Positions 180-44,639 of a stretch of DNA of 64,000 bases are shown here, in pieces. How positions within the stretch are numbered: the stretch's first letter is position 1; each line of letters opens with the position of its first letter. Origin of the DNA: Paenibacillus ferrarius (GTDB lineage Bacteria; Bacillota; Bacilli; Paenibacillales; NBRC-103111); NCBI RefSeq assembly GCF_002027705.1, contig NZ_MBTG01000012.1, positions 310,001 to 374,000 on the forward strand. Reading direction: 5' to 3'. The notes under the pieces were generated by a model. It saw only the letters and a list, made by a program, of their open reading frames with translations, was not told the origin of the DNA and searched no databases. Position numbers and translations under genes: made by a program.

Positions 180-208
180 GTCCCGCAGCTCAAGCGGGGC
201 TTTTTCTT
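180..208 (+). terminator. Rho-independent terminator after the transporter
   Basis: CCCGC (182-186) pairs with GCGGG (194-198) around a 7-nt loop and is followed by GCTTTTTCTT. It separates the upstream transporter from the two-component operon. Confidence 0.75.
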
Positions 209-11149: not shown

Positions 11150-11503
11150 CAGAACCAGAACCAGAACCAGAATCAGAACCAGAAACAGAAACAGAAACAG
11201 AAACAGAAACAGAAACAGAAACAGAAACAGAAACAGAAACAGAAACATATTCATATTCATATTCAGTCACAACTACAGCTACAGCCAGCTACAGTCACAA
11301 CTACAGCTATATAGCCACAGCCATAACTACAACTACAGCCATAACTATAACTATAACTACAGCTACAGTTACAGCCAGCTACTGTCGCTATAGCCACAGC
11401 TAGAGCTAGAGCTAGAGCTAGAGCTAGAGCTAGAGCTACAGCTACAACGACAACGACAACGACAACGACAACTACAACTACAACTACAACTACAACTACA
11501 ACC
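11150..11503. repeat. Hexanucleotide microsatellite mosaic
   Basis: About 350 bp of simple repeats: AGAACC units, then AGAAAC repeated 11 times without error (11181-11246), ATATTC, irregular ACTACAGCTACAGCC text, about six AGCTAG units, GACAAC units and finally TACAAC units up to 11503. All share a period of six. Open frames on both strands (alternating RN or VS dipeptides) arise from the composition and are not credible genes. The region is a likely slippage hot spot. Confidence 0.9.
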
Positions 11504-17474: not shown

Positions 17475-17514
17475 GTGCTTTGGTGGGGGGCTCGGTTGGG
17501 ACTCATACTTTGCA

Positions 17515-17700
17515 AATTCCTGCGATTATGCATCTCTTTGTTCTTCGGATGGCCAGAAACATAAAATTCCTGCGATAATGCATGCTTTTATGGTCTTTTT
17601 TGGATTTTAAGATGGAAAAGCTTAGAAAGCCTGCATAATTGCAGGCTTTCTTGCTTTTCACGCGATTTCGAGGAAAAAGCCTGTACTTTTGCAGGCTTTG
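17515..17700 (-). repeat. Four-core phased repeat element, copy A2
   Basis: Same family as copy A1 in opposite orientation. Core sequences on the plus strand are TGCGATTATGCA (17521-17532), TGCGATAATGCA (17571-17582), CCTGCATAATTGCAGG (17630-17645) and CCTGTACTTTTGCAGG (17680-17695). Centre distances are 50, 61 and 50 bp. The two outer-paired strong cores and the two weak cores appear in the reverse order of A1. It lies downstream of the acetyltransferase gene. Confidence 0.8.
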
Positions 17701-25612: not shown

Positions 25613-25860
25613 TCGCAAAATTCCTGCGAATATGCATCCTTTTCGTCTCTGGTAGAAGCAAAATGCTGAAAAGCCTGCGATTATGCATCCTTTCGACACC
25701 TTTTCTCGATTTCAGGAGGGAAAAGCTCAAAAAGCCTGCATAATCGCAGGCTTTCTCTGTTTTCACACGATTTGATCGAAAAAGCCTGCATAATCGCAGG
25801 CTTTCTCTGTTTTCACACGATTTGATCGAAAAAGCCTGCATACTCGCAGGTTTATACGAA
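25613..25860 (-). repeat. Phased repeat element, copy A3, with an extra duplicated core
   Basis: Same family and orientation as A2. Five cores on the plus strand: TGCGAATATGCA (25625-25636), TGCGATTATGCA (25676-25687), and three AGCCTGC-N6-GCAGG(CT) cores centred at 25742.5, 25792.5 and 25842.5. Centre distances are 51, 61, 50 and 50 bp. The fifth core arose from an exact 50-bp tandem duplication (from about 25733 and again from about 25783). It fills the gap between the convergent DUF4091 and tatA genes, and could also act as their shared terminator. Confidence 0.82.
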
Positions 25861-40274: not shown

Positions 40275-42431
40275 CTAGGTGTAACGGCTCAGTGAAACGG
40301 CACAGAATTTGAATTCAGGCTGAAAAGAGATGGGATCGACTGCATCACTAGTCACGTCGTTTATCGCAAGATTCTCACCGTAAATGTCGTTCCAGTGAAA
40401 AGGGGCGAAGCAATTGCCTTGACGGACTCTGTCGCTAATAACGGCAGGGAGTACGGCATGACCACGGCGTGACCTAACTTCGACGAGATCCTTCTCGCGG
40501 ATGCCAATCATTAAGGCATCTTCAGGGTGAATTTCGATAAAAGGACCTGGATTCAGTTTGTTCAGCATCGCAATCTTGCCTGTTTTGGTCAGTGTGTGCC
40601 ACTGATGCTGCAAACGGCCTGTGTTCAGCACAAACGAGAATTCACTGTCCGGCATTTCGGAAGGCGGTAAAAAAGGACGCGCAAGGAAAATGCCTTTGCC
40701 GCTTTCCGTTGCAAAAACGAGACGCGGATGGGTGCCGTCGGCATATTCTTTTCGATTTTGGCTGATGCCATTGTTCAAATAACGGATAGGATTACGGTCA
40801 TCCTTACTATCTGGCGCACAAGGCCATTGTATAGATGTTTCACGCAGTCGCTCGTAGGTTGCGCCGCGAATGTCGTAGCCTGTTTTGGGATTCCATGCTT
40901 TTTGAATTTCGAGATATACATCAGCGGAAGTGCTATATGTAAATTCAGCCGCAAAGCCCATTTCACAAGCGACACGGGCAATAATCTGCCAATCAGGCAT
41001 TGCTTCTCCTGGTGGATTGACGGCTTCTTGCATGAAGGTTAGGTTGCGTTCAGAGTTGATCATTACCCCCTCAGCTTCAGACCATAGTGCGCCGGGAAGC
41101 ATGATATCGGCATACCGATTGGTCTCTGTTTCCAAGAAAGCATCTTGTGTGATAACCAATTCGGCGGCCTGCAGCCCTGCGATGACGTTCTTGCGGTTGG
41201 GGACAGTGGTAACCGGGTTGGTACAAATGATCCAGCATGCTTTGATATCTCCAGCTTGCATACTTTGGAACAGAGAAATGGTGCCTGTACCTACCTCGGT
41301 GCGCAGTGACCCGCGTGGGATGCTCCACATATCTTCAATAAAATGCCTGTCGTCTTCGACAAGCACGCTCCTCTGCCCAGGCAAGCCGGGCCCCATGTAG
41401 CCCATCTCGCGGCCGCCCATGGCATTCGGTTGTCCGGTGAGCGAGAAGGGACCGCTGCCGGGACGGCATATAGCGCCTGTAGCTAAATGCAGATTGCAGA
41501 TGGCATTGGTATGCCATGTCCCATGTGTGCTTTGGTTGAGTCCCATCGTCCAGCAGCTCATCCATTCACGGGACTCACCGATCCACTGCGCCACTTGGCG
41601 GATATCTGCTTCTGGAATCCCTGTGATTTCGGAAACTTGGTCAGGTGGATAGTCCTCGAGAAAGCTCGGCATAGCTTCCCAGCCTGACGTGAACTCGGCG
41701 ATGAATGCCGGGTCGGTGTGACCATTCTTGACGAGTAGATGAAGCAGTCCATTAAGCAGTGCAAGGTCGGTGCCTGGTTTGATCTGCATAAAAAGCGAAG
41801 CTTTATCTGCGGTAGCATTGCGCCGCGGGTCGACTACGATCAGCTTGGCGCCTGCTTTGACCCGGTCCAGCACGCGCTGAAACAAGATCGGATGACAGTC
41901 GGCCATATTGGCTCCGATGACGAAAAACAGGTCCGTACGATCCATATCCTGATAGGAACCAGGGGGACCGTCGGCTCCGAGAGATAGCTTATAACCGCTG
42001 CCGGCACTGGCCATGCATAAGCGGGAATTGGATTCGATGTTGTTGGTTCGAACGAAGCCTTTGGCCAATTTATTAATAAGGTACTGTGCCTCCAGCGACA
42101 TTTGTCCCGAAACGTAGAAGGAAATTGCATCGGGGCCATGCTCGTCGAGGATCGCACGCAGCCGCTTTGCAGTCTCCCGTATCGCTTCATCGATACCGAA
42201 TTGACTTGGTTCAACGCCTCGAGCAGAACGTATGTAAGCATGTTCCATTCTTCCTGATTCAGCTATGGCTTGTGCGCAAGTAATGCCTTTGGTGCAAAGC
42301 CTGCCGAAATTAGTCGGGTGTTCTTTATCGCCTGTAACTTTAAGAACCCGGTTCTCGGACACTTCAAGCACAATCCCGCACCCTACTCCGCAATAGGGAC
42401 AAACACTTTTCACTTTATGAGTTGTCATCAT
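40275..42431 (-). CDS. nasC: Assimilatory nitrate reductase catalytic subunit (molybdopterin family)
   Basis: Molybdopterin oxidoreductase (718 aa), expected to reduce nitrate to nitrite in the cytoplasm. The N-terminal 4Fe-4S cluster is CPYCGVGCG with C11, C14, C18 and C46 (NFGRLCTKG). The molybdenum-ligand cysteine is C139 in SNSRLCMASAG, where formate dehydrogenases often have selenocysteine. Length fits NasC/NarB (about 710 aa) without an extra C-terminal cluster domain. GGAG lies 4 nt before ATG 42431 and 7 nt before ATG 42428. No NasB, nitrite reductase or nitrate transporter gene is nearby. Confidence 0.88.
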   Translation of the reverse strand: MMTTHKVKSVCPYCGVGCGIVLEVSENRVLKVTGDKEHPTNFGRLCTKGITCAQAIAESGRMEHAYIRSARGVEPSQFGIDEAIRETAKRLRAILDEHGPDAISFYVSGQMSLEAQYLINKLAKGFVRTNNIESNSRLCMASAGSGYKLSLGADGPPGSYQDMDRTDLFFVIGANMADCHPILFQRVLDRVKAGAKLIVVDPRRNATADKASLFMQIKPGTDLALLNGLLHLLVKNGHTDPAFIAEFTSGWEAMPSFLEDYPPDQVSEITGIPEADIRQVAQWIGESREWMSCWTMGLNQSTHGTWHTNAICNLHLATGAICRPGSGPFSLTGQPNAMGGREMGYMGPGLPGQRSVLVEDDRHFIEDMWSIPRGSLRTEVGTGTISLFQSMQAGDIKACWIICTNPVTTVPNRKNVIAGLQAAELVITQDAFLETETNRYADIMLPGALWSEAEGVMINSERNLTFMQEAVNPPGEAMPDWQIIARVACEMGFAAEFTYSTSADVYLEIQKAWNPKTGYDIRGATYERLRETSIQWPCAPDSKDDRNPIRYLNNGISQNRKEYADGTHPRLVFATESGKGIFLARPFLPPSEMPDSEFSFVLNTGRLQHQWHTLTKTGKIAMLNKLNPGPFIEIHPEDALMIGIREKDLVEVRSRRGHAVLPAVISDRVRQGNCFAPFHWNDIYGENLAINDVTSDAVDPISFQPEFKFCAVSLSRYT

Positions 42432-42599: not shown

Positions 42600-43362
42600 T
42601 TCATCCGAGCCTGCTTTTTTGGCAGTCTCGGAGTAGATTCCCGGGGATGTAGGCAGCATTTGGAGTTGAGCCTGCCTTTTTGGCAGGCTCGGGGTGGGTG
42701 AGCTGCATTTTGCCTCCTGAGCCTGCTTTTTTGGCAGTCTCGGGGTGGATTCGCGGGGATGTAGGCAGCATTTGGGGTTGAGCCTGCCTTTTTGGCAGGC
42801 TCGGAGAGCGTGAGCTGCATTTTGCCTTCCGAGCCTGCTTTTTTGGCAGTCTCGTGGTGGATTCGCGGGGATGTAGGCAGCATTTGGGGTTGAGCCTGCC
42901 TTTTTGGCAGGCTCAGGGTGCGTGAGTAGGTTTTGCCTCCTGAGCCTGCTTTTTTGGTAGTCTCGTGGTGGATTTCCGGGGATGGAGGCGGTATTTGGAG
43001 TTGAGCCTGCCTTTTTGGTAGTCTCGGAGAGCGTGAGCTGCATTTTGCCTTCCGAGCCTGCTTTTTTGGCAGTCTCGGAGTGGATTCCCGGGGATGTAGG
43101 CAGCATTTGGAGTTGAGCCTGCCTTTTTGGCAGGCTCAGGGTGGGTGAGCTGCATTTTGCCTCCTGAGCCTGCTTTTTTGGCAGTCTCGGAGTGGATTCG
43201 CGGGGAAGGAGGCAGCAATTGGAGTTGAGCCTGCCTTTTTGGCAGGCTCAGGGTGGGTGAGCTGCATTTAGCCTCCTGAGCCTGCTTTTTTGGCAGCCTC
43301 GGAGTGGATTTCCGGTGATGGAGGCAGCATTTGGTGTTGAGCCTGCCTTTTTGGCAGGCTCG
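42600..43362. repeat. Seven-unit 112-bp hairpin array (phased core family C)
   Basis: Two hairpin types alternate. Type a (GAGCCTGC-N7-GGCAGTCTC) starts at 42607, 42719, 42831, 42942, 43054, 43166 and 43278. Type b (GAGCCTGCC-N5-GGCAGGCTC) starts at 42668, 42780, 42892, 43003, 43115, 43227 and 43339. Distances alternate 61 and 51 bp (one is 50), giving a 112-bp unit. Units differ by a few bases. The arms share AGCCTGC/GCAGGCT with family A. The array fills the gap between the divergent nasC and nrtR-like genes. Minus-strand frames through it are composition artefacts: 112 is not a multiple of 3. Confidence 0.9.
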
Positions 43363-43540
43363 GAGGGCATTCCCGGGGATAGGGGGCAGCATTGTTTCAA
43401 AAGAGCACCTATCACACCCATTGGGGGATGTAGTCGGAACAAGAGCGGTTTTTTTGTTTAGATGCTCAAAATGAAATCAAACAAAAGAAAAAGTATTGAC
43501 ACAGATTGGAAATAAGGATTAAATGATTATAACAAAGTGA

Positions 43541-43722
43541 TAATAACAATTTGTTATTAACATTGCATTGTTATCAGAGATCAATTTGTTATTAACATTG
43601 TATTATTATCAAAGATCAATTTGTTTGTAACATCGTATTATTATCAATGATCAATTTGTTCGTAACATTACATTATTATCAAAAGATAACTTGTTGTTAT
43701 CATCGCATTAATATCAAAGAAT
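43541..43722. repeat. Five iterated 35-bp repeats upstream of the NrtR-like gene
   Basis: CAATTTGTTATTAACATTG-type units begin at 43547, 43582, 43617, 43652 and (degenerate) 43688; four intervals of 35-36 bp. The first overlaps a perfect palindrome TAATAACAAtTTGTTATTA (43541-43559), and the last contains GATAAC-ttgtt-GTTATC (43685-43701). The last unit ends at the ribosome site of the regulator. This is a plausible multi-site operator for the NrtR-like protein; iterons are the other pattern it resembles. Confidence 0.8.
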
Positions 43723-43733
43723 AGGTGGTTTTC

Positions 43734-44639
43734 ATGGATATCGAGCAGCTTAGAGACAAACAAGGACTGACTGAAGCTGAGTTTTTAGAGCGTTATGATG
43801 CGAGTATATACGAAAGACCATCTGTTACGGTTGATATGTTAATTTTCACCGTCATGGATGAGGTTAAGGAAAATTATAGAAAGCTTCCGGAGAAATCACT
43901 GAAACTGCTCTTAGTTAAAAGAGGTGTTCATCCTTATCTTGGTCAATGGGCTTTACCGGGGGGCTTTGTCACGCAGACCGAGAGTTTGGATGAAGCCGCA
44001 TTGCGCGAGCTGAAAACGGAGACGAATGTTGATGAAGTATATATGGAGCAGCTCTATACATGGGGGGATGTAAGCAGAGATCCACGTACACGGGTTATCA
44101 GCTGTTCCTATATGGCATTGGTTGATGGCAGCTTGCTTGAAGTGAAGGCAGGAGATGATGCGGATGAAGCAAGGTGGTTCAATGTTAGCTACAGTGTGCT
44201 TGAGGAGAAGAAAACGTTGCTAGGGAAAGACTTTGTATTTGAAAAAGTGGTGAAAATAACGCTTTCTAACGATACGGATACGCTTGAGGCTGTCGTCAAA
44301 GTCATTGAAAAATATGTAGGGAAAGCCTTCGTGGTCGAAAGAGAGATTATGGTTTCGAATGGAATTGCTTTTGATCATGCAGAAATGATCCAATGTGCCG
44401 TTGAAAGACTTAGGAATAAAATTGAATACACAGATATTGCTTTTAACTTGATGCCGGAGTTTTTTACCTTATCGGAGCTTCAGCAGGTGTATGAGGTGAC
44501 TTTGGGAAAAGAACTTCTTTCGGCTGCCTTTCGAAGAAAGATCGCGAACATGGTTGCGGAAACCAATCAGTTTACAAAGGATGCAGGGCATAGGCCGGCC
44601 AAATTGTTCAGGTTTAATCCGAATTGGCGATATTTGTGA
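43734..44639 (+). CDS. NrtR-type Nudix-domain transcriptional regulator
   Basis: Fusion (301 aa) of an N-terminal Nudix domain and a C-terminal winged helix, as in NrtR, which senses ADP-ribose and controls NAD genes. The Nudix box GGFVTQTESLDEAALREL then KTETNV is degenerate at the second-last Glu and at Gly, as in regulatory members without hydrolase activity. The helix-turn-helix lies around FTLSELQQVYEVTLGKELLS. ATG 43734 is preceded by AGGTGG at 43723-43728. No NAD-synthesis gene is adjacent, so its targets lie elsewhere or include itself through the 35-bp repeats. Confidence 0.86.
   Translation: MDIEQLRDKQGLTEAEFLERYDASIYERPSVTVDMLIFTVMDEVKENYRKLPEKSLKLLLVKRGVHPYLGQWALPGGFVTQTESLDEAALRELKTETNVDEVYMEQLYTWGDVSRDPRTRVISCSYMALVDGSLLEVKAGDDADEARWFNVSYSVLEEKKTLLGKDFVFEKVVKITLSNDTDTLEAVVKVIEKYVGKAFVVEREIMVSNGIAFDHAEMIQCAVERLRNKIEYTDIAFNLMPEFFTLSELQQVYEVTLGKELLSAAFRRKIANMVAETNQFTKDAGHRPAKLFRFNPNWRYL

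Follow-up and report, generated by a model that had tools for sequence, protein, structure and literature searches.

A fourteen-core palindromic array between divergent nasC-like and nrtR-like genes of Paenibacillus ferrarius and related four-core elements of Paenibacillales

The intergenic region between the nasC-like and nrtR-like genes of Paenibacillus ferrarius carries a tandem array of palindromic cores, and there is good support for its origin from a four-core element by expansion. The array was analyzed within a 64-kb stretch of DNA (hereafter called the window, to which unprefixed positions refer) of a 9.18-Mb draft genome consisting of 73 contigs. It belongs to a family of repeats designated B, distinguished here from a second family, A. 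The basic form of these repeats is four palindromic cores separated by approximately 51-61-51 bp, and they make up a class of non-coding elements of Paenibacillales. According to the reading that we prefer, and to which we assign a probability of roughly 0.6, the array is an expanded non-coding palindromic element of BIME-like character, which would have been spread by TIR-bounded transposons, would be subject to turnover of 112-bp units and would be recognized by a putative dimeric DNA-binding protein.

The array and its orthologue in Paenibacillus alba

The positions of the array, its cores and the neighboring genes, as well as of two A elements of the window, are presented in Table 1. The start letters of all 14 cores are GAGCCTGC, and each core is a 23-bp palindrome of the general form GAGNCTGCC, five bases and GGCAGNCTC. 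An earlier note on this DNA had described fourteen hairpins alternating at 61 and 51 bp; all fourteen were recovered, with consecutive steps of 61, 51, 61, 51, 61, 50, 61, 51, 61, 51, 61, 51 and 61 bp, i.e., with one step deviating from the announced rhythm. TRF delimited the repeat at 42607-43363, with a period of 112, 6.8 copies and 89% matches, and for units about 89% alike the former description "near-identical" was too strong. The existence of two alternating hairpin types was confirmed, as six of the seven cores heading a 61-bp step have a C.T mismatch at arm position 4 (3' arm ...AGTCTC) and six of the seven remaining ones pair perfectly (3' arm ...AGGCTC). The arms reported for the hairpins, AGCCTGC/GCAGGCT, are indeed present as a perfect pair, but only in one of these types. 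In two cores of the array, GGTAG was found instead of GGCAG.

Table 1. Positions of the array, its cores, flanking genes and A-family elements within the window
Feature	Position	Strand	Remarks
A-family four-core element	17514..17698	+	two degenerate and two hairpin cores
A-family five-core element	25617..25854	+	duplicated 50-bp unit; P. alba orthologue has four cores
Molybdopterin oxidoreductase (nasC-like), left neighbor	40275..42431	-	
B-family array	42607..43361	.	14 cores, 61/51 rhythm, ~6.8 units of 112 bp
Core 1	42607..42629	+	heads 61-bp step
Core 2	42668..42690	+	heads 51-bp step
Core 3	42719..42741	+	heads 61-bp step
Core 4	42780..42802	+	heads 51-bp step
Core 5	42831..42853	+	heads 61-bp step
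Core 6	42892..42914	+	heads 50-bp step, the sole exception in the array
Core 7	42942..42964	+	heads 61-bp step
Core 8	43003..43025	+	heads 51-bp step
Core 9	43054..43076	+	heads 61-bp step
Core 10	43115..43137	+	heads 51-bp step
Core 11	43166..43188	+	heads 61-bp step
Core 12	43227..43249	+	heads 51-bp step
Core 13	43278..43300	+	heads 61-bp step
Core 14	43339..43361	+	last core
NUDIX and NrtR_WHD regulator, right neighbor	43725..44639	+	

The array is not a product of chance, because its fold was far more stable than expected (z = -7.0 for the plus strand and -8.5 for the minus strand, versus 20 dinucleotide shuffles each), and because a strict scan of contig C12 revealed 30 B cores, 14 of them in the array, against 2 in one mononucleotide shuffle. 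Its location between divergent nasC-like and nrtR-like genes, indicated earlier, was upheld. Two other repeats were observed in the window, i.e., an AT-rich 35-bp tandem repeat of about five copies immediately upstream of nrtR (43547-43720), mostly missing in P. alba (43581-43687 has no counterpart by blastn), and a row of hexanucleotide repeats (CAGAAA, ACAGCT) at 11150-11500.

Paenibacillus alba is the nearest of the genus members compared (nrtR identity of 95%, versus at most 83% for the others). At its orthologous locus (95% identity for nasC and 94% for the nrtR stretch), the array has exactly four cores, with steps of 51/61/51, which bears out the previously proposed tandem expansion of a four-core element. 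Further four-core B elements exist in the P. ferrarius genome, e.g., C12:90843-91027 (found by the strict scan) and L053. The locus is, as judged between species only, a tandem repeat of variable copy number (14 cores here versus 4 in P. alba), i.e., a VNTR. The P. alba locus also contains, between the array and nrtR, a 592-aa ORF (L105:1790-3568) with a lipoprotein-like start (by eye), which is absent in P. ferrarius.

Nine pairs of orthologous arrays were identified by flank comparison, and their cores were counted with a lenient scan, on the P. alba side on contig C57 and ten further regions. The core counts (P. alba/P. ferrarius) were 9/6, 16/7 (the 7 includes three weak, irregularly spaced cores, the strict count being 4), 7/7, 6/8 (a rearranged pair, L202/L025), at least 9/13 (the P. 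alba array reaches the contig end, L203 running off its contig), 10/12 (the 10 includes one weak match at 88 bp), 11/2, 4/14 and 4/10. The numbers thus differ in eight of the nine pairs from the two species compared, with the rhythm kept, in line with what the earlier note had predicted for sister strains; the outcome which it had named as refuting, a constant copy number together with a lack of four-core elements elsewhere, did not occur. Since the arrays are found at orthologous loci, they are older than the species split and their length has been altered since. At one locus (L054), a CTCA microsatellite was seen next to a two-core remnant, the P. alba counterpart of which is an 11-core array with 61-bp steps.

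Families A and B and related modules in other genomes

A DNA search of the P. ferrarius genome with the array yielded 106 matches, distributed over about 39 places, and inspection of the flanks revealed the 61/51 alternation, with different linkers, at most of them. Arrays with 61-bp steps only were found at L040 and L044 in P. ferrarius and at L207 in P. alba. Strict B cores lying within 140 bp of each other formed 232 neighbor pairs (L039 not included), 223 of which are spaced by 50-52, 60-62 or 111-112 bp, the last value corresponding to one weak core skipped; it should be stressed that the P. ferrarius loci were retrieved by similarity to 176 bp of the array, which biases this count toward like spacing. 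The nine non-standard spacings were 59, 63, 68, 95, 101, 106 (twice), 117 and 122 bp. In P. alba, the regions were selected by the core only, or a contig was taken in full, irrespective of spacing, and 69 of 71 strict pairs were at standard spacings there.

Units of exactly 112 bp were 91.8% identical when taken from one locus (100 pairs) and 62.8% identical when taken from different loci (630 pairs), the latter value being distributed unevenly between cores (83%) and linkers (47.5%; 609 pairs). Linker identity between loci is nevertheless above chance (48.7% versus 29.2% for shuffled sequences; 630 pairs); the B units therefore share descent, and their constant length may in part simply reflect this. 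Half of the B linker bases have changed, with the distance between the cores unchanged.

All 43 classified arrays (32 of P. ferrarius and 11 of P. alba) are intergenic, i.e., located between called genes. The P. ferrarius arrays, three of which are parts of one interrupted array (L040), occupy 15 convergent, 15 tandem and 2 divergent gaps, whereas the 151 gaps on contig C12 with a length of 150 bp or more comprise 26 convergent, 90 tandem and 35 divergent ones. This corresponds to a convergent excess (15/32 versus 26/151, p = 7e-4) and a divergent deficit (2/32 versus 35/151, p = 0.03), as determined with a crude longest-ORF gene caller, and makes the 14-core array an exception to the usual position in P. 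ferrarius. The P. alba arrays (3 convergent, 6 tandem and 2 divergent) showed no clear convergent excess. The orientation count was made without the contig-edge arrays L030, L039 and L203 and without loci with at most one standard step (L043, L045, L046, L050, L054, L056 and L057), L040 was entered as three arrays, and L035, L036 and L055 were omitted as already covered by contig C12. Two contig ends of the P. ferrarius draft (L030 and L039) fall inside one B array, since both carry the same array with identical first units, and the assembly breaks there. B arrays could be usable as typing markers.

The B-core pattern (strand 1/strand 2) matched 131/127 times in P. ferrarius and 176/177 times in P. 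alba (G003), while the other 102 of the 104 family genomes had 0-5 matches. Among these 104 genomes, family B is thus amplified only in P. ferrarius and its sister species P. alba LMG 31323. Concordantly, a two-core pattern with the 51-bp step, applied to 84,980 species genomes (a set that may omit the P. ferrarius genome itself), hit ten stretches, all of them of P. alba LMG 31323.

Family A, pointed to earlier as the possible source of the array, was set aside in this role: the A core pairs are inverted about the element center, and the linkers of the P. alba B element are in direct repeat (both by inspection), and the array is therefore not an expanded A element. Common descent of the two families, considered on the basis of the core motif and the rhythm, is only suggested. 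A-type matches number 103 in P. ferrarius, 84 in P. alba and 1-7 in four of 28 other genus genomes; counts of A elements, scored on 40 first-look candidates per genome, are lower bounds. On two whole contigs, all 30 pairs of exact A-type cores lying within 140 bp are spaced by 49-51 or 61 bp, and so, at standard spacing, are 50 of 51 pairs with one mismatch allowed; the figure rests on these contigs, as another set (86/86) was discarded because its loci were mostly spacing-selected. Some A-type elements acquired a fifth core by a duplicated 50-51-bp unit (window 25731-25850, G029 and G106). The 5' flank of A elements in G006, G021 and G004 is conserved, and no TIR was seen at the element ends among the output listed. 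P. alba carries an A element within a segment of about 885 bp (L172, G003:C57 ~385929-386814) that is absent at window position 192-198; this segment sits at a terminator-like hairpin and is flanked by the 7-bp direct repeat AAGCGGG (by eye).

Related modules were searched for with the pattern CCTGC-N6-GCAG occurring twice at 49-62 bp. At least one match was found in 62 of 392 order genomes, representing 18 of 49 genera, although single pairs may be chance matches; a reversed control pattern matched in 4 of the 392. Five or more module pairs on a strand are present in 29 order genomes. The pair spacing is bimodal: with each place counted once, 54 of 55 listed pairs outside the genus of P. ferrarius, and in a second listing of pairs from other genera 116 of 116 among the matches listed, fall at 49-52 or 60-62 bp. 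For viral contigs, searched with this same relaxed pattern as a control (108 stretches, 80 of them listed, with 82 matches), the respective proportion among listed matches was 39/82, about half, which equals an even spread.

Transposon carriers and possible roles of the cores

Four-core modules were also found inside transposon-like elements. In G377, twenty copies were aligned as an element some 400 bp long, with cores at 50/62/51 and the ends AAG[AG]GGCTGTCCCAAAAGT, both of which were located in 11 of the 20 copies. At its 3' end, this element has sequence in common (by eye) with the terminus of a PF13751 transposase gene of the same genome, which we take to be of the IS1182 type. In G022, four complete copies of a 349-bp element have 20-bp TIRs CTATATAAGTTGAATTAATG and cores at 51/61/50, and the TIR resembles both ends of a DDE_3 (PF13358) transposase element of G004, presumably of the IS630 type. 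Both elements are thus MITEs in the sense of sharing their TIRs with insertion sequences; no clear target-site duplication longer than 2-4 bp was recognized in their copies by eye.

In P. ferrarius, an inward IS1182-like TIR occurs within 400 bp of 8 of the 21 A elements on contig C12, against a mean of 0.58 and a maximum of 5 over 2000 random trials, and an outward one at none. On contig C57 of P. alba, inward TIRs accompany 4 of 12 A elements (random mean 0.31, maximum 3) and outward ones 2. One of the four B arrays on contig C12 has an IS1182-like TIR within 400 bp; the 14-core array has no inward one within this distance and, as no TIRs were found, was rejected as a MITE. The IS630-type end, used as a pattern, occurs at 1 place of the P. 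ferrarius genome, on contig C17. An autonomous B element was not found. A composite at C12:301338-302652 consists of a TIR, an A element, a B array, a transposase fragment and a second TIR, and another copy (L422) is without the B array; an attempt to delimit the B-array ends from this empty site was abandoned, as the copy junctions differ and there is no clean target duplication.

In G377, the IS end of PF13751-transposase copies directly adjoins the right half of a core at L415, L430 and L431, i.e., in three of the five copies with the same readable end (by eye). This insertion sequence behaves as if it targeted core palindromes. PMC1525189 deals with REPs as targets of insertion sequences.

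Turning to the preferred reading, the modules would spread with or inside TIR-bounded transposons, and some of them, the 14-core array included, would now be without visible TIRs. Units of 112 bp might be gained or lost when like cores recombine unequally or slip during replication, and might be homogenized within each locus. A putative dimeric DNA-binding protein (a transposase, a host nucleoid protein or a topoisomerase) would occupy each palindrome, and its bound copies would need a fixed mutual orientation, by which core sequence and spacing would be retained. The array may then act as a BIME-like, length-variable protein-docking and DNA-topology element, placed in P. ferrarius mostly downstream of genes.

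The DNA-level constraint assumed in this reading is consistent with the way in which the stems vary. In 208 distinct B cores, the eight arm positions considered (position 4 was omitted) showed 286 one-sided changes versus 15 compensated double changes, counted with a core scan that tolerates no more than 4 misses among the 14 arm letters and therefore favors conserved arms. Position 4 itself is not Watson-Crick paired in 266 of 370 B cores. The cores conserve sequence rather than pairing. As palindrome and distance are common to A and B, and compensatory changes are few, we infer a DNA-binding dimer. No protein binding the cores was found. Assuming 10.5 bp per turn, 51 bp corresponds to 4.86 and 61 bp to 5.81 turns, the difference being about one helical turn; helical phasing of the cores would be conceivable, but the nine non-standard strict B spacings did not form a clean helical series.

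A more specific version of the preferred reading, tentative and in our opinion possible rather than probable, assumes that four cores at about 51/61/51, each bound by the candidate protein, form one nucleoprotein complex, with selection acting on geometry much more than on the linkers; the above-chance identity of the linkers makes this version slightly less likely. Unrelated transposons would have adopted this module, and in the P. alba lineage it would have turned into a tandem array growing and shrinking by 112-bp units. With the spacing kept to about one base and about half of the linker bases changed, selection on geometry becomes separable from selection on sequence. The docking model predicts that some protein recognizes pairs of palindromes at a distance of 51 or 61 bp.

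An explanation at the RNA level, in which the hairpins are transcription terminators or stabilizers of mRNA 3' ends and the array is a row of these, seems unlikely, yet it survives better than the other rivals. The P. ferrarius arrays are enriched in convergent gaps, the RNA folds are stable, arrays at L049/L203 and L054/L207 lie behind a terminator-like hairpin (by eye), and A-type cores form hairpins that have an A-tract on one side and a T-tract on the other, with at least three T within 6 nt after the core in 59 of 63 cases. However, at least three T within 5 nt follow only 3 of 370 B cores, the frequent lack of pairing at position 4 and the paucity of compensatory changes do not fit a selected stem, base-exact spacing is not required for termination, and the 14-core array is located upstream of both neighbors. 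In addition, an Rfam scan of the window gave 0 matches at gathering score, those with E up to 1 being far below the gathering scores. Termination may fit A, not B; since the T-run is found at A but not at B cores, it is unlikely as a role common to both families.

Quite unlikely is also that the array is a set of operators regulating nasC and nrtR. It is placed between divergent genes, and its palindromes resemble operators of dimeric regulators, but similar arrays adjoin many other genes, in P. alba an extra gene separates the array from nrtR, and the nrtR loci compared from seven other members of the genus gave no blastn match to the array (L109 among them stops at the contig edge just past nrtR, and none has a nasC match).

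Mobilization as a classical REP/BIME by a RAYT (Y1 tyrosine transposase) is to be regarded as very improbable. Short imperfect extragenic palindromes, two alternating linker lengths and tandem arrays would all agree with it, and Y1_Tnp is present in three of the eight genomes of the genus having five or more module pairs on a strand (G004, G006 and G022) versus two of 22 others. Nevertheless, Y1_Tnp (PF01797) gave 0 matches in P. ferrarius and P. alba (drafts of at least 99% completeness) and also in the module-bearing G011, G021 and G029, and there is no constant tag, as GTAG occurs near 17 and CGTC near 15 of 370 B cores (within 8 bp, on either strand). Due to the absence of PF01797 from both amplified genomes, a RAYT/Y1 mobilizer was disfavored.

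Very improbable as well is a plain slippage minisatellite unrelated to any element: a 112-bp tandem repeat with a copy number differing between species would look like one, but not with an identical rhythm at 32 P. ferrarius and 11 P. alba arrays, a discrete four-core orthologue and related pairs in 62 of 392 order genomes. A repetitive protein-coding gene, to which the minus-strand ORFs of 124, 182 and 159 aa running through the array might point, was rejected as extremely improbable, since the period of 112 is not a multiple of three and rotates the frame, the two ORFs tested had no Pfam match and the linkers are less than 50% alike between loci. As regards a phage or plasmid origin, which was rejected as well, the array had no blastn match in plasmid or phage collections.

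Comparison with known systems

We rate the array as an extragenic palindromic repeat whose geometry is not described in the literature found; in the open-licence papers searched, no report on this family in Paenibacillus was encountered. Its closest likeness is to BIMEs, with which it shares arrays of short imperfect palindromes at regular spacing in extragenic regions, and like REPs it belongs to a family of many short palindromic extragenic copies, as the pattern matches given above indicate. BIME-2 elements have two alternating linker lengths, a 3'-end position and gyrase binding, and GTAG/CGTC REPs are as a rule linked to RAYT transposases or treated together with them. According to PMC2817692, BIMEs are regularly spaced, alternate in orientation and are bound by proteins. 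In the available part of PMC3733652, GTAG repeats are attributed to Proteobacteria, Cyanobacteria, Chloroflexi and the PVC group, and CGTC repeats to Proteobacteria, Chlorobi, Bacteroidetes, Spirochaetes and Thermotogae, Firmicutes not being among the groups named there. REP counts for Bacillota, e.g., Bacillus subtilis, are given in PMC12306157, and Paenibacillus is absent from the part of it that is available.

In contrast to BIMEs, the B linkers are in direct order, the four-core module of 51/61/51 is kept to about a base, and the two amplified genomes have neither Y1/RAYT nor a constant GTAG/CGTC tag at the cores. As Y1/RAYT is absent and GTAG/CGTC is rare near the cores, the array was not filed as a REP/BIME.

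Similarity to MITEs (IS1182, IS630) consists in the short TIR-bounded elements of G377 and G022 carrying the four-core module, but this module is common to MITEs with unrelated TIRs, and the 14-core array is without a TIR. The array resembles VNTRs/minisatellites in being a 112-bp tandem repeat whose unit number differs between species, and differs from them in that it derives from an element which is dispersed and has a two-step rhythm of its own. Bidirectional intrinsic terminators resemble the A-type hairpins with their A- and T-tracts, whereas B cores have no T-tract and frequently a stem mismatch. What sets the family apart from these systems is the occurrence, in an order of Firmicutes, of a dispersed palindromic module for which the two genomes with the strongest amplification have no Y1 transposase and which is found inside MITEs whose ends are unrelated.
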